Shown here piece by piece: positions 26,100 through 51,206 of a DNA stretch of 64,000 nt; position 1 is the first letter of the stretch, and every line of letters starts with the position of its first letter. The translations under genes and the position numbers were made by a program. Source of the DNA: Medicago truncatula. Taxonomy: Eukaryota > Streptophyta > Magnoliopsida > Fabales > Fabaceae. The stretch is from NCBI RefSeq assembly GCF_003473485.1, contig NC_053049.1, positions 8,184,001 to 8,248,000 of the forward strand. Direction: 5' to 3'. The notes under the pieces are model-generated. The model saw nothing but the letters and a program-made list of their open reading frames with translations, was not told where the DNA came from and did no database searches.

Positions 26100-27376
26100 T
26101 TAATCTTCCATCCCCTCCCTCTGTAAGATGCTTCAAACACAGCCAAAATACTTTCATTTATGATCAACAACAAATTATTATCATGCAATCAATGAAACAA
26201 AATCTCTGACGTGGAGTATTCAATTTCATTTGCGATGAATTGAGATCTTCCATACCCTCTCATTTGGATTTTCTTAATTTCTTGTTTCGTTTCTTATCCT
26301 TTTCAATTCTCCCTTCTTTTAATTCACCCTGATCGTTGCAAAGATCAGACAGATTTCAAAGAAAAGAGATTCTCAGCAGTGAGCAACAGATTGAATAGAT
26401 AGCAAAATGAAATTAGGTTTTTTAATTTTGTAGATTGGGTTGACCTTTTCAGCATAAAGGTTTTCATTCTGGTATGATTATTTTTTTAGTTAGGGTAATT
26501 TGACTCTGTTATTTGAAATATAATATTATTGTTGTATTGTTGCAGTCTTTTGTTTAGTAGTGTAATGATTTGTTGGAATTGAATTGTTGAGTGGTAGGAG
26601 AAATATAATTGATTCTGTAGTGTGTAGAATACATGTTTGGTTGTTTTCGACTAAAATTGATTTCGCCTCTTGAATTGATTTTACTTAAGCTTTGTAGATT
26701 TTGATTCTAGAATTGACTGTTATACACAAATTTATAGTTTAATCAACTTTTGCATGAATGTATCCAAGCAATAATCACTAAATTAACGGATTTTATATAG
26801 TTTAGGACTAAATCGGAGAGGGAGTGATAGTTTACAGACTAAATTGATGATTTATTAGCTTTTTTTTCTTTCTTTTTAAAAGGCTCGTTCAGTGGACCGA
26901 GTTTTGTGGACCGAACAAGTGCGGTAGTAAAATAAATAGAAAATATTAACTATATTCTTACTGAAATTATTATATTTACATTTTTGCACTATTAATTAAT
27001 TATATCATATGTTTATAGTAAAATATATTTTAATAATTTCTGGCAGTCCGTGTTACTCGCAATTTACTATGTTCATTACTTTTTCTGATCTTAGGTCGGA
27101 TCTCGATTTTGACTACCCTACAAATTGATTGATCTTTATTCAGGTGTGGATTCGATTCATAGATGAAGTTGTTATCATAGAATCACATATTGCATCAACG
27201 TGGTTGGGAATTGTTTGTGGATATTGAAGAGCTTGATTTCAGAAGTTTGAGTTGTGACTTATAAGTATATCAGCTTAGGATCTCCAAGTTGTTTCTGTTT
27301 CTCGATTCGGAACATGGTCTGTTAGGAGTGACAAATGGGAAAAACATGATGAATGCGGAAGCTAGATTGTCTGTCA
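26100..27376 (+). promoter_or_regulatory. 5' UTR and leader intron region of the FAB1 gene
   Basis: A transcript leader is suggested by pyrimidine-rich sequence at about 26100-26420, a good donor (CTGGTATGA) near 26472, and a strong acceptor (TTTATTCAG) ending at 27143, shortly before the FAB1 start codon. A leader intron of about 670 bp would result. The intron region holds a partial copy (about 26620-26780) of the GTTTGG/AATTGATTTTG repeat seen in full at 34009-34300. Exact transcription start is not visible. Confidence 0.45.
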
Positions 27377-28484
27377 ATGGACGTAATAGACAAGACCTTT
27401 TCTGAGCTTGTTAGCATCATTAAATCATGGATTCCCTGGCAATCTGAGCCAGCAAACGTGTCTCGTGATTTTTGGATGCCAGATCACAGTTGTAGAGTAT
27501 GCTACGAGTGTGATTCGCAGTTCACCTTATTTAATCGCAGACACCATTGCCGTCTTTGTGGACGAATTTTCTGTTCAAAGTGTACAACAAACTCAATTCC
27601 TGCCCCGTTCAGTGGCGAAAGGAATCCTTGGGACGAGTGGGAAAAGATTCGCGTATGCAATTATTGTTACAAGCAATGGGAGCAGGGCATAGTTTCTTTT
27701 GATAACACTGGTCAGGTTTCAAATCTCGATCGTACAATGTCAGCTTCGAGTGTTGCTAGTAGTAAAACCAGTGCGACTGCTGACAGTAGTAACATTACTC
27801 TTTGCTCCGCGCCTTATTCAGCTGGGTCTTATAAACAAATACAACAGGGTTCGTGTGCGAACAACTTACTTCAATCACCTAAGAGGGGAAAAGACACTGA
27901 TCGGGAAGGTTTATCATCCTTAGGAGGGAGGAATATTGATCTTATAGAAGACCCGTTACCAAAGCAATACGGGTTCTCGATAAGCAGGTATTGCACTATT
28001 TCTCTTACATTCATTGATAGAGAGAACTAATGCTTGGTTGTTCATATTGATATTTTTATTTCTTATATTGTTTTTAATAAATCATATTCTCCATTGTGCT
28101 TATTGAAAATTCAAAGGAGTTTCACAGCCTTACATTATATTTTATTATAACATATTTTGACGGAGATCTGATAAGTGATCACATAAATTATTTTGGTCTA
28201 ATCGGCATCAGAGTCATCAGGATTTAGGAATACATAATCTCAATATAGGTAGTCAATCCCAGCCAATCCTGGCGGGATCCCGGAGGAGCAGCGCATCTCA
28301 ATGAAAAACCCCGACAGTAATGTGAATCCCAGCCCACTTCTGGTTCGTGCCCACTCCAGGTGGGAGAGCGGGTACCCGGTTCACGTGCTCTGGTCCCCGG
28401 GTTCCCACTCCAGGAAAATCACGATTTTGCCCTTAAAATTTGAACCATTTGAAGGGCAATTTGGGTTTTTTGCACAAACCTAAT

Positions 28485-28524
<40 letters not shown>

Positions 28525-31500
28525 ATTTCCATTCTCTCTCTAACTAGTAATTGTTTTATCATATCTTTTTTTATTCTCTGTTTTTTATGCAATCTCTCCG
28601 CTGTTCTTATACAATATATCCTTTGCGATCCCGGTGATCAAACTATCCCACTTTTGGGGTCGGCCGCTCCGCGCCGCTATCCGGGATTGACTATCTAGAT
28701 CTCAATGTGTAGATGTTATTTACGAAAAGATCTGTAATTTATTGAACTAGGGCCAGCGATCTCTAAGAACCAACGATTTTTACTCCCTCCATTCCTTTGT
28801 AAGCCTCGTTTTTTTAGAAGTTTTTCTTCATTTTTTATTTTTTCGTTTTCAAAGTTCAAAGTAGTATTGTTTTGTCAAAATTGTCCTTGATTACTTTTTT
28901 GCAAAGAGGTAAAAATGTGAAATGAGATAATAAATAAAAATGGTATTATAGGAAAAAAACAATTCCATAAAAAGTAAAAACAGCGATTAGAAAGGAATGA
29001 TGGTAGTATATTTAATGTCTGCCTACTCGACGAGTGCTGCTACTCTTTTTTTTGTTTGTGAAATTTTCATGATCATACGGGTTTATCTTACTTCAGGAGT
29101 GACGATGATGAGGATGATTATGGTGTATATCGGTTGGATTCAGATATGAGGCAATATCCTCAAGTGAATAGCTACTATGGACAAGCTGTGCTTGATGGGA
29201 TAAGCAACGTTGATGGCTCACAGAAAGTGCATCCTAGTGGAGAAAACATTGATGCAAAACTCTCTTCAAACTACAATTTTGATGCACATGGTTTAGAAGG
29301 AACACCAATTACTTCAAAAAATGAAGATGAACCTGATATCTGTGATGAAAACGAAGCACCTTCCTCGTTATATGTTTCAGAGGACGTTGATGCTGAACCT
29401 GTTGATTTTGAAAATAATGGACTTTTGTGGCTCCCTCCAGAACCAGAAGATGAAGAAGATGATCGAGAAGCTATTTTGTTCGATGACGATGATGATAATG
29501 ATGGGAATTGTACTGGAGAGTGGGGTTATCTGCGTAGTTCAAGCAGTTTTGGTAGTGGGGAGTCTCGACACAGAGATAGGTCAAATGAGGAGCACAAGAA
29601 GGTAATGAAGAATGTAGTTGACGGGCACTTTAGGGCTTTGGTATCGCAGCTATTACAGGTTGAGAACTTACCAGTTGAAGACAACAACAAAAACAGTTGG
29701 TTGGAAATAATCATATCTCTGTCATGGGAAGCTGCTAATTTACTGAAACCAGATATGAGCAAAGGTGGAGGGATGGACCCAGCTGGTTATTCGAAAGTCA
29801 AATGCATAGCTTGCGGGAGCCGCATTGAAAGGTAAATGCTATTCTTTTTATGACTTTAACCTCTAAGTTCTAATTTGTATCTAGTTTTGTTTCATGTTCT
29901 TCTAGATCAGCTGTTGCAATTTGTATTTCTTGACGGCTTTTAGCAACAGGTTTTAAGCCCTCACGATCATGTCTCTCACACATAAATACAGTGTGTCTCA
30001 ATGTGAAAAATCACCTTTCATAACCTGCTAAACAAAAATATTCAATAGGAATGGCGTGATTGCTTTTTTTTTATACTATTTCTGGAAATTTGTTAAGGTA
30101 TTAAAAAAAAACAAATTAGAAGAAAAAGAGCTGCAATCAAATGGGAGCTGAAAAATGAAATCTAGGCTATATCTTTTTATTTCTTTATTTCAAAACACGA
30201 GAGCAGTAGAAATAAAAAGTTGTTGAGGATAAGTCATTTTATTAATTTTCACTAAAATCTACACCATAAGGAATTTAGGATACCTAATTTTAATTTTTAT
30301 GCTTTTATGTTGATCACTTGATTTTATTGCCCGTTATACCTGAAATATATTATTAAACTCAACAATGGTCAGCGAAATTTTTATGTGATAGTCCTGGCAT
30401 TCCATTTGCTTGACTTCTTGGATATATGTTCTTACAGTGTGGTGGTTAAAGGTGTTGTTTGTAAGAAAAATGTGGCTCATCGGCGAATGACGTCAAAAGT
30501 GGATAAACCTCGTATGTTGATCCTTGGAGGAGCTCTTGAATACCAGCGCGTTACCAATCTCTTGTCGAGTGTAGATACCCTATTGCAGCAGGTTGTTCTT
30601 GTGCACCACTTTTTAAGTTTAAAGTTCTAGTGTACCACTTTCTATGCTAATGAAGTAATGATTTATATTCTCTATGTAGGAAATGGATCATCTGAAGATG
30701 GCAGTGGCAAAAATAGCTTCACACCAGCCAAATATCCTTCTGGTAGAGAAATCAGTTTCACGATATGCGCAGGAATATCTTCTTGCTAAAGATATAACTC
30801 TGGTTCTCAATGTAAAGAGACCCCTTTTGGAACGCATAGCACGTTGCACAGGCACTCAAATAGTGCCTTCAGTCGACCATCTTTCATCACAAAAGTTGGG
30901 TTACTGTGAAACATTTCATGTTCAAAAGTTTCTTGAAGATCTAATTAGTGCTGGTCAGGGTGCCAAAAAAACAGTGAAAACATTGATGTTTTTCCAAGGT
31001 TGCCCAAAACCATTAGGTTGCACAGTAAGTCTTTATTTGTTTTATGTAATTTGAACATAATAGGAAGAAAATATGCAGGCAACTCTGACTTGAAATTATA
31101 TAACCTTTCTACTATTGTAAGAAGAATTCATTGTTCTCGTGTTTATATTAAACAGATTTTACTCAGAGGAGCTGATATGGATGAACTGAAAAAGGTCAAG
31201 CATGTGGTTCAGTATGCAGTTTTTGCAGCTTACCATTTGGCTATGGAGACATCTTTTCTTGCCGATGAAGGAGTCTCCCTTCCAGAACTTCCGTTAAACA
31301 GTCTGGCCCTTCCAAATAAGTCGTCTTCCATTCAAAGGTCCATCTCAACAGTTCCTGGTTTTAGTGTTCCTGGCAATGAAAAGTCTCAGGCTCATGAACC
31401 TAACGCTGAACCACGGAGAACCAAAAGTGTCACAGTTGCTGAACTAGCCTCAGCAATTTGCAATACAGGATCCTTATGTAATGGTTCTTCTCAATCTTTG

Positions 31501-34500
31501 CCACCTGGATTAAATCTTAACCATTCAAGTGCCTTGTACTCCTCCACTGTTGCTTCAGGAGATGAAATTCCCGAGTCGTACCATAAGAAGCTTCTTTCCA
31601 CACAACCTCTGGCGAAAGAAACTACTGTGGTGGATAACACTCCGGTTGTCGTGGATGACCCCTCTGTAAATGATTCTGATACTGCAGAGAAGATATATCA
31701 AGGCATTTTGGCTGGAAAGTCTCAAAATGGTCATAGCCAAATCTATGCAAATCAATTAAGTGGTTCGGAGTCGTTATCTCCAACTAATGCTCAAAACCAT
31801 ACCGAGAAGCCTGTAATCACAAATGAAGAACCAGTTCCTCAGAAAGAAGAGTTTCCTCCATCACCCTCTGACCATCAAAGCATTTTGGTGTCGTTGTCCT
31901 CCCGGTGTGTGTGGAAGGGAACTGTGTGTGAGAGGTCCCATCTATTTCGAATTAAATACTATGGAAGCTTTGACAAACCATTGGGTCGGTTTCTACGGGA
32001 CCATTTATTTGATCAGGTAATTGTCTGTTACAGGAATAAATGTGCATTTGTTAGAACTACGACAATGATTTTTACAAATAATGTATGTCTTTACTTTCCA
32101 GAGTTATCGATGCCATTCTTGTGATATGCCATCGGAAGCACATGTGCATTGTTACACACATCGACAGGGAACACTTACCATATCGGTCAAGAAACTACCA
32201 GAAATTATCCTTCCTGGTGAAAAGGATGGAAAGATTTGGATGTGGCACAGGTGCTTGCGGTGTCCAAGAATCAGTGGCTTTCCTCCTGCTACACAGAGAA
32301 TAGTAATGTCTGATGCCGCTTGGGGTTTATCGTTCGGAAAATTTTTGGAGCTCAGTTTCTCAAACCATGCTGCAGCCAGCAGGGTGGCAAGCTGTGGCCA
32401 TTCTCTACACCGAGACTGTCTTCGTTTTTATGGGTGATTATAATCTCCCCTATCCTTATGTTTGAACTAAACAATAATCATATCCAAGTTTTATACTCTC
32501 CAGTCAATATATAAGAAAATTTTAAAAAAAATATTTGGTCCTATTTATAAGAAAATATCACAACTTTTAAGGTGTAATTATTGCTTAAAAGACCTTTTTC
32601 CCCATTATTTAATGGTTGTCTTTTTAATATTAGTGAGTTTATTTAATGCTTCACAATTTTTTATGAGGGTATATTTGTAAAAATATTCAAAAAACTACAC
32701 TAATTAATGAGTGTATTGGTTTTGATGTTTTTTGGTTTTTCTTCTCATAATAAGGACCGGAGGGAGTATATGTTATCCATTTATAACAAATTTGTCATGT
32801 ATGTGGTCTTGATCTCCATTTTATTGGTAATAAACTTCACGATTTAAGATTTAAATGGTTGAATTTGAAAAATAAAGCGTGTTTAATAAATTATGCATTG
32901 ACAGTGTAAAAAACATTTACGCACATATATGCAGTCATCTAGTCATGTTTAACCATCTTGCCATGATAATATTAATTACTCCCTCCGTCCCTATATATAA
33001 GACCCTTTTGCCAAAATCACGGGAATTAAGATAGTGGATATTTGTATTAAAGTTGTTTGTAATCACTATTGTTTTTACAATTTTATCCTTTAAGAAAGAA
33101 GGTTAGTTTATGTTTTCAACATGTTATTTATTGTTGATTGAAGAAAAAGATGTATAATAAATAGGGGCATGTATGTAAAAAAATAATTAATGTAGTTGGA
33201 AATAACAAAAGGGTCTTATAAAAAGGGACAAAAAAAATTCTCAAAAGGGTCTTATAATTAGGGACGGAGGGAGTATGAAAATATTTACACTGGTAAGATG
33301 GTGAAATAAGTCTGAACGTCTGTAAATTTGATTTGTCGGGGTATATTTGGTGAACTCTTTTTTAAAACCAGATTATGTAAGAGAAGGAATCTTATAACCT
33401 CTTTTGTTGGATGCATTAATTCACCATTCTCATGTTTCTTTTGCAGATTTGGGAAAATGGTTGCTTGTTTTCGATATGCATCAATTGATGTTCACTCAGT
33501 CTACCTTCCCCCACACAAACTGAATTTTGATTATGGGAATCAGGATTGGATACAAAAAGAAACAGACGAGGTTCAATATTTGAAGTCTTGGATTTTTAAA
33601 GTTGGTTTAGTGACAGGGAACCTAATTTATGGTTGTTGCAGGTGGTCAACCGTGCAGAGCTTTTATTCTCTGAAATACTCAATGGTCTTGGTCAAATTGG
33701 AGAGAAGAGATCTAGTGCATCTCAAATCAATAGTGGCCATAAAACACCGGAAATAAGACGTCAAGTTGCTGAACTGGAGGGGATGTTGCAAAGAGAGAAA
33801 CTCGAATTTGAGGTGAGGTTCTTGGTAAATATACCTGAGTTCATAGATACATGTTATTCAAGTTCCCTGCCTTGTAGTGGCCCTGTACAGTGATTAATTT
33901 TGTTATCATTCACTTATAGTTTTATGAGATATAAGATCAATCTTGTTTTAGAATATTATAATGTTTATCCTTTTATTGTTACAAAAGATTTATTATGTTA
34001 GCAGTCTTAGTGTATGTTTGGGCCGAAATTGATTCTAGAGGTGTAGAACTGATTTTGACATGTTTGGCTGTTTTAAGTAGAATTGATTTTGCTTCGAGAG
34101 TTTATTCTAAACTTTAAGCTACAATTTGGAGCGTTTGCCTCTTCATTTGATGTTTTGCCTTGAATTTACTGTTCAACCCACTTTTACATGCATGTATCTA
34201 AACATAAACCACTTTACATTTTACTCAATCCAAATCAATTTTACAAAATCAAAGCATTTAAAATCATATTTTCTCATCGCATAACCAAACACACATTTAA
34301 TAATATGGTGCAAGTTTTATTAATTTATATTATTGAAGCAGCACATACATATCTTGAAAGGTTTGTGGTTAATGGTTCTCTCTTTTGTTTCCTTAGGAAA
34401 CTCTTCAAAAGATTTTGAACCAAGAAAAGAGAAATGGCCAACCTGGGACTGGGATTGACATTCTGGAAGTTAATCGATTGTGGAGGCAGTTACTTTTCCA

Positions 34501-37393
34501 ATCATATATGTGGGATCACCGCCTTATATATGCAGACAGCTTAGCTAATTCCAACAATGAAACTGGACTAAGCAGTTCAATTTCAGAGGATATGGAAATA
34601 CCTATCGATGAAAATTTGACGACTGATGTCTCCTTGGCAGGAAGGGGATTCAGTAGTGTTGACTCCATTTGTGGAGTAGTTGATGCTAAAAGTTCTCAGT
34701 CAGATGCATTTCATCAAGAAGTTGACATGGTCAAAAATAAACAAAACGAGAAAGAAGAACAACCTAATCTTTCGATCAGCAAAAGTATAAATGACCAATC
34801 TGACCTTTTAGAACCTGAATTGGGTGTTCGCAGAGCTCTCTCTGAGGGGCCATTTCCTGTCGTACCTAGTTTGTCTGAAACACTTGATGCTAAATGGACA
34901 GGTGAAAACCAGTCAGGAATCGGAACTCAAAAGGATAGCACTTCTGTAAACCCTGATACATCTACGGCAGATGCTCTGACGGCCACTGTACAAAGAGAAG
35001 CATACCATCTCGGAGATCGCACAGAAGACCAGAACGGCTACAAGAGTATCTTTTCTGCTCCTAAAGGTCATGATAACATGGAAGACTCTTTAAGCTGGTT
35101 AGGAATGCCCTTTTTAAACTTCTATCGCCAATTTAACAAGAACTTGTTTGCTAGTAGCCAGAAGTTTGAAACACTAGTTGACTACAATCCTGTTTTTGTA
35201 TCGTCCTTCGGGAAGCTGGAACTCCAAGGTGGTGCAAGGATGCTTCTTCCGATTGGTATAAATGACACTGTAATTCCAATATATGATGATGAACCCTCAA
35301 GTATTATAGCTTATGCCTTGATGTCCCCAGAATATCATTTTCAATTATCTGATGATGGAGAGAGACCAAAAGATGGATCCTCTGAGTTGGCTTCATCGTA
35401 TTTTTCAGATTCTGGTGCCTTCCAATCCTTTTCATCTGCTGATGACGCTTTTGATTCTCAGAAAAGTTTCGGATCAATCGAGGATATGATATTGTCCATG
35501 TCTGGGACTCGTAACTCGTCAATGTTGGACCCGGTGACGCATACAAAAGCTATGCATGCCCGAGTTTCCTTTGGAGAAGATGGTCTCCTTGGTAAGGTAA
35601 AATATTCTGTGACCGGTTACTATGCGAAGCGATTTGAGGCCTTAAGAAGAGTCTGTTGTCCTTCAGAGCTCGACTACATAAGGTCTCTCAGTCGCTGTAA
35701 GAAATGGAGAGCTCAAGGTGGGAAGAGTAATGTATTCTTTGCAAAAACCTTGGATGATCGATTTATCATCAAACAAGTTACCAAAACGGAACTTGAATCG
35801 TTCATCAAATTTGGTCCAGAATACTTCAAGTACCTTTCAGAATCCATAGCAACAGGAAGTCCAACATGCCTGGCAAAAATTCTTGGCATATACCAGGTAC
35901 TTGTCTTTCATGCCTTACATTTTTTATAGCACCAAAATGTTAAAGTAACTAAGTCATCATATTTCGTTGGCAAGGATGAAAACATTATATACTTTCAAAA
36001 AAAGATTGTTCAGCCAAAAAAGAAAGAAGAATAATTGCTTTGTTGTTCATCTGATTTTCGGGAGGTGCTTTATTTCAAGTTACAGAAATTTGAAATGATT
36101 TTTAATATCTTAAATTGAATGGTGCCTTCAAAAGATGAAATGGCCATGCAATAAATCATCTCCATGAGTGTATTGGTTTGTTAACTTATAATTTTGTATT
36201 TTGCTTTACTTGTCTTGGATGGATATATATCATCTTAACTTCTTAATTCTTGGATGGCATTCTATTGGAAAAAGGTTACGTCAAAGCATCTCAAAGGAGG
36301 TAAAGAGTCCAAGATGGATGTTCTGGTTATGGAGAATCTTCTATTTAGGAGGACCGTAACACGACTTTATGATCTCAAAGGGTCGTCGAGGTCTCGGTAT
36401 AATCCAGATAGTACAGGGAAAAACAAAGTTCTGCTGGACCAAAACTTGATTGAAGCAATGCCAACTTCTCCTATTTTTGTGGGAAATAAAGCAAAACGAT
36501 TGTTAGAAAGAGGTGTTTGGAATGATACTGGTTTTCTTGCAGTAAGTTTCAAATCTTCATCCACACCATTTTTTTCACTTAACTGTATCATTTTCTTGTT
36601 TCTTACTTAAAATCAGTTTGGATAAACAACTTCATTAAGCGCTTATGTATAAGCTCTACCAAAAGATAAATAAATTCAAAATGTTTTATATAAATCTATA
36701 AGATGTTTTCATAAGTTATCCTAGGTAGTTTAAGGAAATAAGGTGAAAACAACTTATGCACATGTCATTAGTTGTTTCCATAAGTTCTCTCAAATAGTTT
36801 GGCTAGTGTTTATGCCAGTTGATACTACAACAACAACAACAACAACCAAGCTTTATCCCACTAAGTGGTGTCTCGGCTACATGGATCAAATTACGCCATA
36901 TTGGTCTATCATAAACCATATTTGGATTTTATGCCAGTTGATAAACTCAGGCAATCCAATCCAAACAGACCTGTAGGAGGGGCTTGTGGGGGAATCTTTC
37001 AACTAAATTTAAGTTCATTTCACATGCATGATGCATCTGTTTTTCCTCTTTTTGCAGTCAGTTGATGTAATGGACTATTCACTACTTGTTGGGGTGGATG
37101 AAGAAAAGCATGAGTTAGTTCTTGGAATAATTGATTTCATGAGGCAGTATACATGGGACAAGCATCTTGAAACATGGGTGAAAGCTTCAGGAATCCTTGG
37201 AGGGCCAAAGAACGCATCACCAACAGTTATATCACCGAAGCAATATAAGAAAAGGTTCAGGAAAGCAATGACCACTTACTTTCTCATGCTTCCAGATCAG
37301 TGGTCCCCACCATCTCTTATTCCTAGTCTTTCCCAGTCTGATTTAGTTGAAGAAAAAGAAAACAATGCACAGTCTAGGACTTTAGCTGAATGA
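27377..37393 (+). CDS. 1-phosphatidylinositol-3-phosphate 5-kinase, FAB1 type
   Basis: Eleven exons: 27377-27987, 29097-29831, 30438-30591, 30680-31024, 31156-32016, 32102-32433, 33447-33570, 33642-33812, 34397-35896, 36275-36541, 37058-37393. They join in frame to 1811 residues, normal for plant FAB1A/B. The FYVE zinc finger (residues 31-103) is complete: [18 protein letters not shown]. It binds PI3P on endosomes. A chaperonin-like (Cpn60_TCP1) region covers about 450-690, with [16 protein letters not shown] cysteine-rich segment at about 860-960 follows, with [20 protein letters not shown]. The PIPK kinase domain is about 1480-1790, with FIIKQV (ATP lysine), [28 protein letters not shown] and the activation-loop [13 protein letters not shown]. 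The product makes PI(3,5)P2 for vacuole and endosome maintenance. The start at 27377 gives [12 protein letters not shown], matching the family; an in-frame ATG at 27353 is less likely. A versus B cannot be told apart by eye. Confidence 0.97.
28245..28698. mobile_element. GC-rich hAT-like element in FAB1 intron 1
   Basis: Ends TAGGTAGTCAATCCC and, in complement, TAGATAGTCAATCCC form an inverted repeat. ATCTCAAT (8 bp) occurs immediately outside both ends (28237-28244 and 28699-28706), as for hAT. The 454-bp interior is much GC-richer than the surrounding intron and contains (CT)n at about 28491-28520. No transposase is encoded. Confidence 0.75.
28783..29006. mobile_element. Stowaway-like MITE in FAB1 intron 1
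   Basis: CTCCCTCCATTCCTTT pairs with the complement of the right end, CTACCATCATTCCTTT, and TA flanks both sides. It lies about 90 bp before exon 2. Confidence 0.75.
32496..32766. mobile_element. Stowaway-like MITE in FAB1 intron 6, first
   Basis: The right end GGACCGGAGGGAG pairs with the left end CTCTCCAGTCAATAT, followed by TTATAAGAAAA-type sequence on both arms. TA on both sides. Arms are more diverged than in the next copy. Confidence 0.65.
32979..33273. mobile_element. Stowaway-like MITE in FAB1 intron 6, second
   Basis: The left end CTCCCTCCGTCCCTATATAT is inverted at the right end as AATTAGGGACGGAGGGAG, with AAGACCCTTTTG and CAAAAGGGTCTTATA further in. TA target sites occur at 32977-32978 and 33274-33275. 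295 bp, non-coding. Confidence 0.88.
34009..34300. mobile_element. MITE-like repeat in FAB1 intron 8
   Basis: The left side GTGTATGTTTGGGCCGAAAT is inversely matched by the right side ATAACCAAACACACATTTAA, and both arms carry AATTGATTTTG or its complement. Ends of the GTTTGG type suggest Harbinger or hAT. A partial relative lies upstream of FAB1 at about 26620-26780 and a possible one at 60720-60890. Confidence 0.5.
36825..36927 (-). mobile_element. 5'-truncated Au-type SINE in FAB1 intron 10
   Basis: On the minus strand the 103-bp insert reads CATGTAGCCGAGACACCACT, then TAGTGGGATAAAGCTTGG, then a (TTG)n tail. This is the 3' part and tail of the plant Au SINE family as I remember it. It is bounded by a perfect 16-bp target duplication, TTTATGCCAGTTGATA, at 36809-36824 and 36928-36943. 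The length and the tail position fit LINE-driven insertion. The pol III promoter half is missing. Confidence 0.85.
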
Positions 37394-38755
37394 TTCTTTG
37401 TTGTGTTTTTGTAAATTTTACTTCGATTTTGGGGAATCATCAACTCCCTCCATATTTTTGGTTTTGAAAATTATATAGGAATTCTTTTGGTTCAATTGTA
37501 AGTTGGTCAACTATAGATATTATAAAAAAAAATTGTTAGAAAGATACACACAGAGGGGGGCTTTTAGAAGCCACATGGTATTTGATGACCTCTGGATGAA
37601 ATCTTATGTACAAAACACATATAGTCACATTTGTGTCAAGTTACATACATGTATACTTTTTCAGAAGTGCTCCAGTATCTCAAATTTCTTTTGTCATCAC
37701 CATGCATTGGCTTTAAATATTGTTGGGAATTCTTATTGATGCAATGGGAATAAAGTGTTATGATTTCTTGTTTATTTTGGGGATGGGCTAGGCAATGAGA
37801 AGAAGAATAAGTTCAAAGTGATCTTCGATACAACATCAGATCGGTCATGAATGTTGGCGCAGATGCAGGCCAACTAGGTAAGGACCCGGTCAAGGAAGTT
37901 GACGTTATTTTTGCTAAGTGATATGGTCATTGTGGGTCTAGGCTAAGCAAAGGACCCCGTTTCAGCGATTGGGAATCAGAGGCCGTCGTTGAGGGAGTCG
38001 AAGTAGTCAAAAAGAGGTGGCGGGAGGAGCAGAGGTGCTAATTGGGCGAGAGAGACTTTGGGAGACATGAGTGGAGGCCGTTGGCAGTGGTTTAACGGTT
38101 TTTATTTAATTTTTCCAGTGCTAATTTCGTCTGTTGCCTAATTTGTATGCAGATCACTACTAGGCATGATGACTCACATTGCTTATTATAACTTCAATGG
38201 CTAACTTTGAGGTGAAAAATGTCTTTATGGTAGGAGAAGTTTAGGCTAAGGTGCACCTTGCTCTGAATTTTTTCTGACATAGCAATCTTAGATAGAATCG
38301 TTCTCTACTCTGAATGTTGCTTTGCAGACCTCGACACAAGGATCGACGATTTGAAAAAGAGACCACAACCTAAAGGAGAGTTAACCTGAATCCAAAGAGG
38401 AAACAATTTTCCTAACCAAGATGATACAAGGAGGTTCTGACTTAGCTAACTTGTTAAAAAAAATCAATGAAATCTATTAAAAAGAAAAACAAAGCAATGA
38501 AAACTAGGTAATGTCTGTTGGTATCAATCTCCATGAGGCATTTCCAATGGATGTCCTCGTTCACAATAAAGAAAATTTATAGATGTTAGTATCTCAATTC
38601 ATCTCCTTCATGGATGCAAACTTTAACACTTTCTCCTCTAGACAGTGTTTATTTGCTACTGTCTTCTTTTGTAAAATTTTGTAGTTTGGATATATTTGGA
38701 CGAGTTAAGTCTTATTTCTAGCAAACACATCACTAGAATTTTTCTAAATGTTATT
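37394..38755. other. Intergenic, degraded repeats possible
   Basis: The left part should hold the FAB1 3' UTR. 37790-38100 is GC-richer than average and looks like degraded element sequence, but I could not match it to any domain. 38230-38460 is similar in character. No intact gene. Confidence 0.35.
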
Positions 38756-38967
38756 TCAAAAAAGCAAAAATGTTTGCTTCAGATTCATTATAGGCTTCTC
38801 AAACAAGTTTTTTTGCTATGTAATCATGAAATCATTGTTAATTTCATTTCTTCTTTTATCATAGATAATCTTTTTTCGGATTTTCAAGGGTCGTGGGAGA
38901 TACGTAGAGGGTGGTAAAAGAATTTCACATTATCTACCTTTGGTGATGGGTTGGTCTTGAAATTTGT
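38756..38967. repeat. Segmental duplication, copy A
   Basis: 38756-38850 matches 40315-40405 with scattered differences (shared GCAAAAATGTTTGCTTC-like and CATTATAGGCTTC words). 38929-38967 matches 41001-41039 perfectly over 39 bp. The second match covers the donor site and end of exon 2 of the 133-residue gene. About 500 bp that separate the two blocks in copy B, including its exon 3, are absent here. Confidence 0.8.
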
Positions 38968-39424
38968 GTATATAAAAATCTTGAAAACACATTTAGCCAA
39001 GGTTAAATCATATGCTTGTCTGTCTGATCCTTCAACTTAATGAAGTTTAATTGATAAGGTTTTCTATTTAAATAATTGCTATGACATCTCTTATGTTGTA
39101 CGAAGGTTAAGTCAATTTCTTCCATCCCCCACTTACACTTAACTAAATAATGCTCTTGAGATTTTGCATTACTTGAAAAATGTAATATTTCTTTACATCA
39201 TAAATGAATAAAATCCCAAAATATTACACAGTACGACACATGTCGACTCCAAATTGTTTGATATTCTTTCCAATATACTTTGTCAAACATTGGCTCCTAG
39301 AAATACTATGCATGTAAACTAAAAGAATAAAACCTCAACTAGTGTATATTGCTTTCTATATATACTTATAGATAATAACCAAACATTTTCATGGTTCCTT
39401 TCAGCATCTTTTGCTTTAGAAATC

Positions 39425-39552
39425 ATGACTCTCTCTACTGCTAGTAAATTCTACATCATCTTCATGTTTCATTGTCTTCTCCTTATTTCCACATGGGGTA
39501 CAAAGTAACAATGCAACCTATATTTATTTTATTGTGCTTCTTCAAATTTAAT

Positions 39553-39588
<36 letters not shown>

Positions 39589-39872
39589 ATTTGCTATAAC
39601 ACACCCACTAGTTTTTATGTGGGAGTGTTTTAGCAAGCTACACCTTAAGGTGTATTTAACTACTTTTTGGTTATAATTTGCTAAAACACTTCTTCTAAAA
39701 AATAAGTGGGTGTATTCTAGCAAATGCCTATAGGAGTTGCTAACATACACCCACTTATTTTTTATAAGGAATGTTTTAGCAACATTCACCTTAAGGTGTA
39801 TTTAACAATTTTTTAGTTATATCTTTGCTAAAACACACATTAATAAAAACTAGTGGGTGTATCCTAACAAAC

Positions 39873-39909
<37 letters not shown>

Positions 39910-40125
39910 AAGAATCTTTATTTATATTCTTAATTTGCTACATTATTATTTTTCATTTTATGTGTAGAAGTGGAAGCAACACTTTGTGGAAGGAAAAGTA
40001 GAACATTGTCGGGGCGTTGCACCAGTAACTCAGATTGTAGTACAAAGTGCATCAAATGGGAGTATGCAACATATGGCTCTTGTGGAGGCTTTTATATTGA
40101 TTGTATCTGCTTCTTTAATTGTTGA
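39425..40125 (+). CDS. Plant defensin (8-cysteine CS-alpha-beta peptide), 2 exons
   Basis: Exon 1 is 39425-39497 and encodes a hydrophobic signal peptide (KFYIIFMFHCLLLIST). Exon 2 is 39968-40125 and encodes the mature peptide. The intron is GT-AG and falls at the signal/mature boundary, the usual place in plant defensin genes. Joined length is 76 residues. The eight cysteines are spaced 10-5-3-10-6-1-3, the classic plant defensin pattern, with SGRC before the third strand of the pattern, a glycine before Cys5, and a C-terminal CIC-FFNC like PDF1 types. Such peptides are secreted and act mainly against fungi; target here is unknown. A 290-bp fold-back in a TA tract lies inside the intron and a SINE fragment follows the stop by 5 bases. 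No defect seen. A nodule cysteine-rich peptide is unlikely because those have four or six cysteines. Confidence 0.9.
39586..39875. mobile_element. Compound fold-back MITE in the defensin intron
   Basis: The sequence ACACACCCACTAGTTTTTAT near the left end is inverted at the right end as ATAAAAACTAGTGGGTGT. The internal block CACCTTAAGGTGTATTTAAC occurs twice, and AAAATAAGTGGGTGTAT with its inverse occurs at the centre. The unit is therefore a repeated palindrome with four related arms. Perfect TA tracts (39556-39585 and 39876-39907) flank it, as if it inserted into a microsatellite. Confidence 0.75.
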
Positions 40126-40130
40126 GCAGG

Positions 40131-40198
40131 TTTTTTTTTTTTTTTTTTTCCGGGGTTTAAACCCTGAACCCCGCATATATTGCATTATCCCTACAACT
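40131..40198 (-). mobile_element. Truncated tRNA-derived SINE, minus strand
   Basis: On the minus strand: TTGTAGGGATAATGCAATAT, then GCGGGGTTCAGGGTTTAAAC, CCCGG, and a run of about 19 A. It matches the middle of the SINE at 46567-46706 (TTGGTAGGGATATTGCATAT and GGTTCGAACCCCGG). The A-box start is missing and the 3' region after the B box is replaced directly by the A tail. Confidence 0.6.
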
Positions 40199-40402
40199 AA
40201 ATTTATAGGTATGAGTAGAGAACCCAACACTAGTTGTTTCCCATGAAAATCCTGAAGTATGATGAAAGTTCAAATAAATTCCCTTTGGATAATTTAAATT
40301 TAATATTATTTTAAAATAGCAAAAATATTGTTTGCTTCAAATTTCATTATAGGCTTCCTAAACAATGTTTTGCTATGTAATTATGAAGTCATCCTTAATT
40401 TT

Positions 40403-40597
40403 TTTCAGTTCGGTTAGTTCCAAACCTTAAACGGTTTGGTTCGGTTTTCTCAAACCATTTCAAATATTTGGTTCGATTCGATTTGGATTTTTTTGTTAAC
40501 CGAACCATACCCACCCCTAATTAGATTATATAATGTAAAATTGTATACAACTATAATTAGATTATATAATGTAAAATTGTATACAACTATAATTAGA
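40403..40597. repeat. hAT-like end plus 36-bp tandem repeat
   Basis: 40405-40519 is rich in AACCGAACC and GGTTCGGTT words and ends CATACCCACCCCTAA, a typical hAT-type MITE end; the opposite end is unclear. From 40521 a 36-bp unit (TTAGATTATATAATGTAAAA onward) is repeated perfectly at 40557, with a short third start. Confidence 0.6.
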
Positions 40598-40818
40598 GAG
40601 GAAAAAGCAATTGATAAAAACATTGCTATTATTAATTTGTACAACTTGCAAGTAAAATGAAAAATGTGCTGCAGGAACTAACCTACTACACATGTGCTAT
40701 AGGATACACTATTCACATTTTATAATTTACATACTATTACACTCTTCAAACCTCAAAGCTATGAGTGTGACAAAGGCAAGATTGATTAGTTAAAGAAGTT
40801 AAACCATTTTATTGCAAT

Positions 40819-41716
40819 TCAAATTAAATCCTCTTGCAAACGACCACCTTCAACTGCATCATCAATTTCTTTCCCTTTTGCAATTTGAAACCAACTTTGT
40901 TTTAGAAGATTCACAATTTCAACATCCCTAAGCACAACAAAAAATTCCTTTGGTAAGACAAATTTATATAAAATAAGAAAATATAATATTTTGATTGAAT
41001 ATTATCTACCTTTGGTGATGGGTTGGTCTTGAAATTTGTCTATAAGATGGCCCTTCATCATACCCTTCACAAATTATTTCTCCACTTTCATCTTGGTAGC
41101 AAATTATGCCTTGAGACTCATCCTCATAAACAACCTGTTTTGCATCAAAATAGACATTAATTAAGAGAAAGTTCCTTATTCTTGGTCCTAGTCTAGATTT
41201 TACTAAAATAAATATATACATCAATCAACCAATAAAGATTATTTATTAAAATTAGTATCTGATCTCCAATTTTGACATACTTAATAGTTAGTGATATAAT
41301 TAGAGATGATTTTTTTTTTTTTTCTGTCTCTAAATTTTCAAACTAATTCAACTTATTTTTTTAAAAACTAATTCAGCTTTTTTAATAGATACTTCCTCCA
41401 TCTCAAGATATAATCGAAAATAGATCAACATAATTGATATATTTTGTACAAATTTTGAACCAAGTACTTTAACCTTTGCTGATTAAGTTTTGCTTATATT
41501 TGAAGACGGAGGGAGTATATAAAAGAAAAAGGATAATAGGATTTTAACCTTGTTCTTGATGGATGCTGTGATTTTCAATAGAACTGGACCAACTGTTGAC
41601 TTTTTCTTTGGAGCATAGCATCGTTTGGACATCAACAAATTGTTTGAATATTTCACAAATGAATTATCATATTTCTGAATTGGGATTTGAGCTAAAGAAT
41701 TGCAGTGAACAGCCAT
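40819..41716 (-). CDS. Uncharacterised 133-residue plant protein, 3 exons
   Basis: Minus-strand exons 41716-41549, 41134-41010 and 40927-40819 join in frame (phases 0 and 2) to 133 residues with GT-AG introns. Exon 1 contains SKRCYAPKKKSTVGPVLLKI and TASIKNK, a basic segment. Exon 2 is strongly acidic, with DESQGIICYQDESGEIICEG and YDEGP. Exon 3 ends with DVEIVNLLKQSWFQI, an amphipathic helix, and a hydrophilic tail. There is no signal peptide or membrane segment. The paired IICYxDESGEIICEG repeat resembles small conserved plant proteins of unknown function that I cannot name with certainty. The consistent splicing and codon structure indicate a real gene. A piece of its exon 2 and donor is duplicated at 38929-38967. 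Confidence 0.8.
41392..41515. mobile_element. Small Stowaway-like MITE in intron 1 of the 133-residue gene
   Basis: CTTCCTCCATCTCAAGATAT at the left end pairs with the complement of the right end, CTCCCTCCGTCTTCAAATAT. TA on both sides. 124 bp. Confidence 0.8.
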
Positions 41717-43889: not shown

Positions 43890-45530
43890 CTCAGATGTGT
43901 GGGTCACGATTAGAGGTTGGGTGGTAAAAACACAAAGACCGTGTGGATGAAGGGACTTTGCATGATAGGTTTAGACGGTTGTTTGACATAGCGGAAAATT
44001 GGTTGGTCACTATTTTTTAGGGTTGTTTGACTTAGTGGAAAATTGGTTGGTCACTGTTTTTGAGATGTATGCTTTAGATTGATGGTTAGAGGGAGATGCT
44101 TGGAATGGTGGTGTCAATTGTTTGCTTGGAGGGATGAGATGTTGGGGAGTGGAGTGAACTTTTATCTAACATTTTTTACAGATCAGTGTGGAAGATAGGT
44201 GGACTTGGCAAGTTACGCCTAACAAAGGTTGCATCGTTAGTGGGGTTTATCACATGTTGTAGATGTTGTAATTTTTAGAATATTATTTATATTTCAAAAG
44301 TTATATTGTCATACCGATCATGTGCTACTATGTTGCCATTTCTTAAATAATTCATTTGAGCAATTATCTGCTAAGTCATTGCAAATAACTATTATTAAAG
44401 CACGTTTAAATTGCTTACTAAGTCAAGGCTGTTACCATTTCTTCACAACGTTAACTTTGAGCTATTATTATGCCTTTATTCTAGCATGACTAAGCAGGTA
44501 CTTGCTGATATATTAAAACTTCTTTTCATGTGTGAAAACATATAAGTTAAGCACTGCTCTTCTCAAGTTTTTTGATCAGTAGCAACAAAAAGTTAAAACC
44601 AACACCTCACAACTTTGTTTTCTTCTCTTCCAAATTTACTTCCTGAGCTAAACATATGCCTGATAAAATTATCATTCTTGCTGTTCTGTAACCACCATAA
44701 CTTGGAGAAGGACCTGTTGAATCCTGGGGAATTTGCGCACATTGAGGCGGATAAATTCCAAGGACAGTCTTCGTGACGCCTCAGGTTAATACTAACGTGA
44801 TTTTACATGTTTACTTTCTAGTTTGTTTTGCAGAATCTGGTTCGGTGTTATTTGAAGTTGCGGTGACCGCGGTTTATTCGAAGTTGCGGTTGCTGCGTTA
44901 TTACTTAAAGTTGCGATGTTGCGGTTGTTGTTTACACATCAGGTACAACAGTAGATGGTAGAGTCGAGTTCTAAGAAACCAGGATATTTTTACGATTGCT
45001 TTTTACATATTATTTGGAACAAAGCAGTCATGTTAAAAGTGTCTATTTTTACGTGGCGGCTGCTAAGAAACCAGAATCCAACAAAAGACAATCTAGTAAG
45101 ACGAGGGATTATTCAACCAAATTTTAATGTTTGCGTTAGATGTTGTGGTATTGAAGAAAGCATAAATCACTTGTTTTTGAGGTGTGATGTGTTTGGGAGC
45201 ATTTGGTTATTAGTTAGACAATGGTTGTGTATTCATTCACTGACCCTTTTACATTTGTCTGACCATGTTTTACATTTTAGTATGTTAGCACAATGCTCAA
45301 AGAAAATAAGTTATTATATCAATCTTGTTTGACTCGCTTATGTATGAGTAATTTGTAAGGAAAGAAATTACCATTGTTTTCTTTAAAAGGAGGAGACGAT
45401 TGCTCACTTGTTCGATAAAGTTAAGTTACTATTATTTTGGTGGCTGACATCAAAAAATCCAAATTTAGCTTTTTGATCTTTATCTTTAACGAGTTAATCC
45501 TTTATTGTATGCGGGTTTAACCACTTAGTT
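43890..45530 (+). pseudogene. Degenerate LINE ORF2 C-terminal remnant
   Basis: Pieces in order: LHDRFRRLFDIAENWLVTIF, a 44-bp tandem copy of part of this (43977-44020 and 44021-44064), then ISVEDRWTWQVTPNKGCIVS and GVYHML, and after an insertion at about 44270-44940 a zf-RVT zinc-knuckle region (WNKAVMLKVSIFTWRLLRNQ, then NLVRRGIIQPNFNVCVRCCG, IEESINHLFLRCDVFGSIW), and last FWWLTSKNPNLAF. Stops and frameshifts are many. It is the last third of an L1-type element. Confidence 0.8.
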
Positions 45531-49860: not shown

Positions 49861-51206
49861 GTGAGGTTGAGGCTATGCACACTTCTGTTAGGAGTGAGCG
49901 TCGGAAAAAGTCGGAGGCAGAGGGTGTAGTTCAAGATGAGCTAGAGTACAATCAGATGGACGTGGAGCATCAGGTGGAGGATGATGCTGAGGCAATGGAG
50001 GATGATGGCCAGTAGCAGCGGCGGCGGAGGGGGAAGCGTGTGCCGGCGCCAGACCTTGAGCCTTTGGATGACTATCCAGGTGGCCTACACGACATTACCC
50101 TACTGACGAGGTACCATGTGCATGTGGCCATGAAGGTGTTTGAGGGCGAGGTACATATTAATGTGAAACTTTAATGATTGTAAACTGTTGTTAATCTTTG
50201 TGAAACTAATGTTAATGTTTTGTTTTTAATTTTTTGTGGCGAGCCAATTTAAAATGCATTAACAATGGGAAGAAGATTGATTCGATGCATGACGAGGATA
50301 CCAGGCCTATCATGAATGCACAGTGGTGGCGTGATGGACTGAGTGCCACCGGTCTTTCTTGGCTTAAGGATACCAGCTACAACCGGATTGACCACGACCT
50401 GATTTCTACATTTGCGGAGAGGTGGCACGAGGAGACATCAAGCTTCCATCTTCCATTTCGGGAGATGACAGTGACACTTAATGATGTGCATGTTTGCTCC
50501 ATCTTACCATTGATGGTATGTTTTTGTCACACGAGAGTATGGCAAGGGACAATGCGGTGGAGATGATGATGCAGTATTTGGGGTCTTCTCCGGAAGATGC
50601 TCTTGATGAGGTGAATGAGACTAGAGGTGCACATGCACAATTTAGCTACTTGAGAAGGATTTTCAAGGGGCGCCTTTTGCAGCACTTGGAGGCTGATAAT
50701 GAGGGTGGTATGAAGGAGGAGGTGCAAAAGTTGTGGGACCAAACTCTCCGCATATATTTGATGTACTTGGTGGGGATCACGTTATTCACTGACAAGAGCA
50801 CCACCTATGTGGATGTTGTCTATCTGAGGTACTTTAGAGAATTGGAGGTTGTTGTTGGTTATTCGTCGGGAGCTGCTGCACTATCACACTTGTATAGGGA
50901 GCTTAACCATGTTGCCCATTGGAACTGCAAGCATCTGCTAGGATACTTGACTTTGTTGCTGGTATAAATAAATAATTATGTTTGATTTTTCATCAATAAG
51001 TGTTGATTGTTTGTATATTTATATGTGGTTGTCTTTGTTGTAGGCTTGGGTTTATAAGCACTTCAGCGTGTATAAGCAGCAAGGATGCGTGGGGTGGATA
51101 TCGGGATAATCAGCATCCACGCGCCATGTTTTTTGCACCACGGATGAGTTTGTCTACACCAAACAAGTACAGAGGTTACCTGGATGCGCTGGATCTAAAA
51201 AAGTAA
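49861..51206 (+). pseudogene. Plant mobile domain (PMD) gene, broken
   Basis: Order of pieces: a charged N-terminus (SERRKKSEAEG), a TAG stop at about 50012, then RRRRGKRVPAPDLEPLDDYP and GLHDITLLTRYHVHVAM, then PIMNAQWWRDGLSATGLSWL and ISTFAERWHEETSSFHLPFR, EMTVTLNDV, a one-base frameshift near 50490, then LLHLTIDGMFLSHESMARD, RRIFKGRLLQHLEADNEGG, YLVGITLFTDKSTTYVDVVY, and HWNCKHLLGYLTLLL joined over a likely intron (50967-51043) to AWVYKHFSVYKQQG. This is the PMD (PF10536-type) fold found in MAIN/MAIL proteins and in plant transposons. The premature stop and frameshift mark it as dead. The adjacent long palindrome suggests a transposon-borne copy. Confidence 0.8.

Follow-up and report, generated by a model that had tools for sequence, protein, structure and literature searches.

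Positions 39425-40125 of the window, by which we mean the whole 64,000-nucleotide stretch of Medicago truncatula DNA analysed here, very probably hold a two-exon plant defensin gene of the PF00304 (gamma-thionin) family, and this confidence covers both the gene structure and the family. As read from the sequence, the joined exons encode 76 residues with a signal-like start and eight cysteines in the spacing 10-5-3-10-6-1-3.

Structure and family of the gene

The coding part of exon 1 (39425-39497, 73 bp, plus strand) starts with the ATG at 39425 and encodes MTLSTASKFYIIFMFHCLLLISTW and the first base of E25. It thus comprises the start codon and most of the putative signal peptide, and is alignable to exon 1 of the relatives L003, L005, L008 and L042. 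The donor follows position 39497 (TGGG/GTACAAAG, GT at 39498) and the acceptor precedes position 39968 (TTTTATGTGTAG/AAGT, AG at 39966-39967). These splice-site sequences delimit a GT-AG intron of 470 bp (39498-39967, plus strand), which interrupts codon 25 in phase 1. The coding part of exon 2 with the stop codon (39968-40125, plus strand) supplies the rest of E25, the residues V-E-A and the eight-cysteine mature peptide. Retention of the intron would bring a stop as the fourth codon after W24 in frame 0. The gene models of relatives were sought as phase 1 only; when the phase was left free, all three models for the window were of phase 1.

The proximal promoter (39345-39380, plus strand) was read directly, with a TATA-like run, ctatatatac, at 39356-39365. 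It lies within DNA alignable to L008 (39345-39556), L002 (39331-39484) and L006 (39345-39389). A scan for bacterial-type promoters upstream of the gene found none, which is irrelevant to a plant gene.

In the Pfam profile search the spliced 76-residue protein scores 37.2 bits against PF00304, and the exon-2 frame alone (39970-40122) scores 38.7 bits, with the cut-off at 25.1. Hence, an ordinary family search detects the locus. In the scan of the whole genome (430 Mb) it appears with E = 1.8e-6 among 39 PF00304 places, all above the cut-off, 38 of them elsewhere. The AtDEF-like profile (PF25052) gives 20.3 bits, under its cut-off of 25, and Nodulin_late (PF07127) gives 12 bits with E = 0.29, far under its cut-off of 30.4, so that the gene is assigned to neither. 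Plant defensins space their cysteines as C-x10-C-x5-C-x3-C-x9..10-C-x6..8-C-x-C-x3-C, and the window gene agrees with this at every interval. Its two exons, with a phase-1 intron near the signal/mature boundary, also recur in five of the six other members of its clade (see below).

The preliminary description of this DNA was correct to the base in the exon, intron and stop coordinates, the 76 residues and the cysteine spacing, and its identification of a two-exon plant defensin is supported by both the structure and the profile search that it proposed. The longer frame that it saw overlapping exon 2 is present (86 aa, GTG start, 39986-40246), and has no Pfam match up to E = 10. Its statement that no single open reading frame shows the gene is true of the full precursor but not of the mature peptide, which the exon-2 frame holds entirely. 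The intron, which it placed at the signal/mature boundary, is near it, in codon 25, but three codons before the presumed VEA/TLC cleavage. The weight that it put on the gene, however, is not supported: a routine Pfam search picks up exon 2, and the genome has 38 further places of the family.

Relatives of the gene and their introns

A protein search of the genome returned 23 rows, two of which are the gene's own exons and 21 of which lie elsewhere. The cluster at C8:3.67-3.82 Mb, which lies on the chromosome of the window gene some 4.4 Mb from it, holds 17 of the 21. A survey of gene structure covered 37 distinct exon-2 sequences including that of the window; it took only loci whose exon 2 fits the cysteine pattern of our script and left out L001, L033 and L059, which are the window's own locus. 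A two-exon model was obtained for 29 of the 37, two of these models (L002 and L025) being wrong. The other eight (L014, L024, L028, L034, L038, L046, L049 and L050) gave none, and some of these stretches may end before exon 1.

In the tree of the 29 modelled proteins the window gene belongs to a clade of seven (starred) with L002, L003, L005, L006, L008 and L042, supported at 98/98, while 14 of the 26 inner branches of the tree are weak (drawn open). L002 entered the tree by its exon-2 part only. For L025 the signal and acceptor modelled for the same gene under the handle L041 took the place of the wrong automatic model, and L011 was included with an acceptor that is probably not the true one. 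L006 has its automatic start, the true one being probably the second ATG (76-bp exon 1).

Five of the six clade relatives, L003, L005, L006, L008 and L042, have a start, a donor, an acceptor and a phase-1 intron at the same codon as the window gene, with modelled intron lengths of 111, 71, 118, 107 and 123 bp, respectively. This excludes, among the paralogs, the outcome that the preliminary description named as refuting, namely that all relatives lack the start or splice sites. The two-exon arrangement with the same-codon intron is thus found at C3:6.15 Mb (L003), C7:45.34 Mb (L005) and C8:19.16-19.17 Mb (L008 and L042). These four loci also have in common with the window gene the residues E-V-(E/K)-(A/E) after the intron and a homologous upstream stretch. 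In the third loop L003 and L005 have tryptophan, and the window gene, L008 and L042 have leucine. Homology of the window to other defensin loci extends, in pieces, from about 39195 to 40128.

The acceptors of the other two-exon clade members end in TGTAG or TGCAG before AGGTG, and that of the window gene in TGTAG before AAGTG. The resulting TAGAAG (in window positions 39960-39975) is a possible tandem NAGNAG acceptor, and use of its second AG would give 75 aa, one residue fewer. The five two-exon clade relatives have TAGAGG or CAGAGG at this place instead.

The nearest copy, L002 (C8:3703261-3703491, minus strand), lies in the cluster. Its exon-2 protein is 67% identical to that of the window gene and has all eight cysteines in the same spacing. 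However, unlike the window gene, L002 is without the aligned exon-1 start codon, the donor and almost the whole intron: window positions 39484 and 39943 correspond to places only 5 bases apart in it. The deletion fuses mid-exon 1 with the final bases of the intron, and the former acceptor region is now coding in an open frame of 89 aa (ORF 1498-1767 in L002). This frame is uninterrupted and has a hydrophobic start and another upstream ATG. An automatic model of L002, in which a 1061-bp intron leads to an exon without any relation to the gene, was discarded as an artefact because the aligned DNA shows the deletion of the intron.

Insertions in the intron and the flanks

The intron homology of the window gene is broken by an inserted stretch of 356 bp (39557-39912, no strand assigned), in which (AT)n flanks a palindromic MITE. 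The homology ends at 39556-39561 in the relatives, and resumes at 39913-39918 in four of the five (L003, L006, L008 and L042) and at 39956 in L005. The two homologous parts, one from 39498 to about 39556 and the other from about 39913 to 39967, sum to about 110 bp, which is similar to the introns of most relatives. The intron is 470 bp long because the (AT)n and the high-copy MITE sit in this ancestral intron of about 110 bp. The introns of L003, L005, L008 and L042 (71-123 bp) are too short to hold the MITE. We suggest that the window gene and the defensin cluster 4.4 Mb away descend from the same stock, and that the insertion would have lengthened the intron after the gene separated from it.

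The MITE itself (39585-39875, no strand assigned), present in high copy number, is a long palindrome of four related arms of about 46 nt. The outer arms together with the AT tract (39556-39636 and 39825-39905) are 88% complementary. With 40 of 616 candidates scored, at least 40 places, the window's own among them, match it over nearly its full length with an identity of no less than 92%. Within the MITE, positions 39660-39739 match the MIR5267 microRNA precursor on the minus strand, antisense to the gene, with 88.3 bits against the Rfam cut-off of 87. This cut-off is also reached by one (L062) of the five other MITE copies tested, which suggests that the MIR5267 family rests on a transposable element, some MITE copies having been described as a microRNA family. 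The match in the window looks like a MITE-derived one, rather than evidence of a working microRNA here.

On the 3' side, a SINE-like piece (40128-40204, minus strand) occupies the presumed 3' UTR. Its T-run starts at 40131, six bases past the stop, and its minus strand carries a sequence resembling a tRNA-type B box, matched to a pattern of our own. At least 12 dispersed places match parts of 40128-40204 at 75-84% identity. The homology common to the relatives ends at 40128 or before; the SINE-like piece occupies the place where their common 3' flank would be expected, and polyadenylation signals may therefore be lost. The piece, too, would have entered the 3' UTR after the gene separated from the cluster stock.

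The locus is also flanked by collinear direct repeats (no strand assigned). The left copy (38747-38972) consists of 38747-38844 and 38929-38972; the right copy (40302-41044) is split by other DNA, which includes the dispersed repeat 40404-40523. The pairs are 83% (38747-38844 and 40302-40401) and 98% (38929-38972 and 41001-41044) identical. In a genome search that passes over the commonest words, the only match to the longer pair's right-hand member was its left partner. To judge from the sequence, the repeats would fit an insertion of the defensin copy with target duplication, or a tandem duplication later disrupted. A bolder scenario, which we regard as improbable, is that a small cluster-derived copy was inserted at a repaired break, leaving the split repeats, and that the MITE, which entered the intron later and can form a microRNA-like hairpin (MIR5267 family), makes the defensin pre-mRNA or an antisense transcript a source of small RNAs. 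If true, these small RNAs would regulate the defensin gene.

Several other features lie around the locus. The repeat at 40404-40523 is a high-copy dispersed one of about 117 bp, with at least 39 other places at 81-87% identity (40 of 112 candidates scored), and is adjoined by a 36-bp unit that occurs twice in tandem without a difference (40518-40589). At 41389-41518, sub-threshold matches to MIR1120, MIR1862 and MIR6224 occur on both strands; the stretch is therefore probably palindromic, and probably another MITE. The neighbour gene upstream, on the same strand as the defensin (27353-37393), combines a FYVE finger with a PIP5K domain and is likely a FAB1-type phosphatidylinositol-3-phosphate 5-kinase. 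Fragments of zf-RVT (44955-45332) and of a plant mobile domain (PMD, 50216-50967) downstream are probably traces of transposable elements.

Predicted peptide and fate of the gene

We propose the following course from gene to peptide. Transcription would start downstream of the TATA-like run, and the 470-bp intron would be spliced out in vivo. The 76-residue precursor would then enter the secretory pathway and lose about 28 residues. Its N-terminal stretch is hydrophobic, with a mean hydropathy of 2.72 over the best 10 residues, and is homologous to the starts of the relatives. The cleavage between VEA and TLC is placed by analogy with radish AFP-type precursors and would leave a mature peptide of 48 residues (39979-40122, plus strand) with a computed pI of 8.5 and six K/R against three D/E. 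This peptide of about 48 residues would fold as a CS-alpha/beta peptide with four disulfides in a presumed pairing. It would be exported to the cell wall space and is most likely antimicrobial or antifungal. We take the product to be a putatively secreted peptide of the CS-alpha/beta type, with a presumed antimicrobial role whose strength is uncertain.

The solved structures (PDB) closest to it in sequence belong to antifungal proteins and defensins of plants (best 2n2r, 3e-7, and 1ayj, 6.5e-7). The window peptide has in common with 1ayj, 2n2r and 2m8b, which presumably come from radish and Arabidopsis, the eight cysteines and, in the alignment, the S, T, SG, E and GSC residues. However, it is two residues shorter ahead of the last cysteines, where it has aspartate in place of their histidine-lysine. 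In an alignment of 18 rows of our choice nine columns are invariant, namely the eight cysteines and a glycine two positions ahead of the fifth of them. A single-sequence AlphaFold model of the mature peptide (pLDDT 58) has three strands and no helix; it is poor, shows no defensin fold, and is too weak to argue against one.

The gamma-core of the window gene, GSCGGFYIDC, is without a basic residue, in contrast to the strongly basic GHCRGFRRRC of L011. Strong antifungal activity is therefore doubtful. L011 belongs to the same Pfam family, and a phase-1 two-exon model can be drawn for it as for the window gene; however, it lies in a different clade of the tree. It matches PDB 2lr3, which we take to be MtDef4, in 45 of 46 residues.

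The readings that compete with a defensin gene of this kind differ much in how probable they are. A defensin-like appearance put together by chance from open frames might be imagined, as the exons are short and the DNA is AT-rich, but its likelihood is negligible and we reject it. The window contains the strict eight-cysteine pattern a single time; none of 150 simulated windows (first-order Markov model of the window) contains this pattern or even a loose one; and the homology to relatives spans exons, intron ends and upstream DNA. It is also very improbable that the gene is of the NCR (nodule-specific cysteine-rich) type and acts on rhizobia in root nodules. The NCR family of Medicago is very large, with 583 members predicted (PMC3924332), and the Nodulin_late profile does give its weak match; nevertheless, that match is so far under the cut-off, with PF00304 fitting instead, that the candidate was rejected on profile score. 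The five published NCR promoter motifs of 41-50 bp (PMC3613412) are also unremarkable in the 1 kb upstream: in a scan without a positive control, the numbers of background blocks, out of 60, that equal or exceed their scores are 22, 37, 48, 60 and 39.

Rather less likely than a working gene, but to be taken more seriously than these, is a defensin that is structurally intact but silent or dying, having left the cluster and being overrun by transposable elements. It is compatible with both the gene structure and the family assignment. The MITE and AT tract in the intron, the SINE-like piece close behind the stop and the isolation of the gene from the cluster point in this direction, as does the altered gene structure of its nearest relative. 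The NG86 dN/dS values are below 1 in all nine exon-2 comparisons of the window gene with relatives (0.21-0.83) and fit a constrained family. With L002, however, dN/dS is 0.65, with differences at 8 of some 31 synonymous sites and at 22 of some 122 nonsynonymous ones. This value is not distinguishable from 1 (Fisher p = 0.31-0.32), which counts in favour of a silent copy and limits the reading of constraint to the family, without extending it to recent constraint here. Against silence stand the intact start, frame, splice-site sequences and all eight cysteines, and the transcription evidence for 90% of the Medicago DEFLs on an array (PMC3601123).

The window gene is an ordinary member of a large and well-studied defensin family that has been catalogued at least twice in Medicago truncatula. 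The array comprised 684 probe sets for all 756 then-known DEFL genes (PMC3601123). A genome-wide prediction gave 1170 cysteine-rich peptides, 43 of them defensin-related and 125 absent from the annotation release then current (PMC3924332), which bears out in general the earlier remark that annotation misses such genes. The defensin-like Medtr8g012795 is among the genes regulated in Verticillium wilt (PMC5041324), and its number suggests that it belongs to the chromosome 8 cluster. A search for fragments of the window peptide found no paper in print that gives them, which means little, as the search covered main texts, where protein sequences are rare.

Hence, the window gene alone matters little, and would add at most one gene model if the annotation lacks one. 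The locus is nevertheless a tidy example of how a defensin gene ages, with an intron lengthened by a MITE and a SINE-like piece at the stop codon. Such ageing is also seen in L002, where the intron is deleted and the frame is still open.
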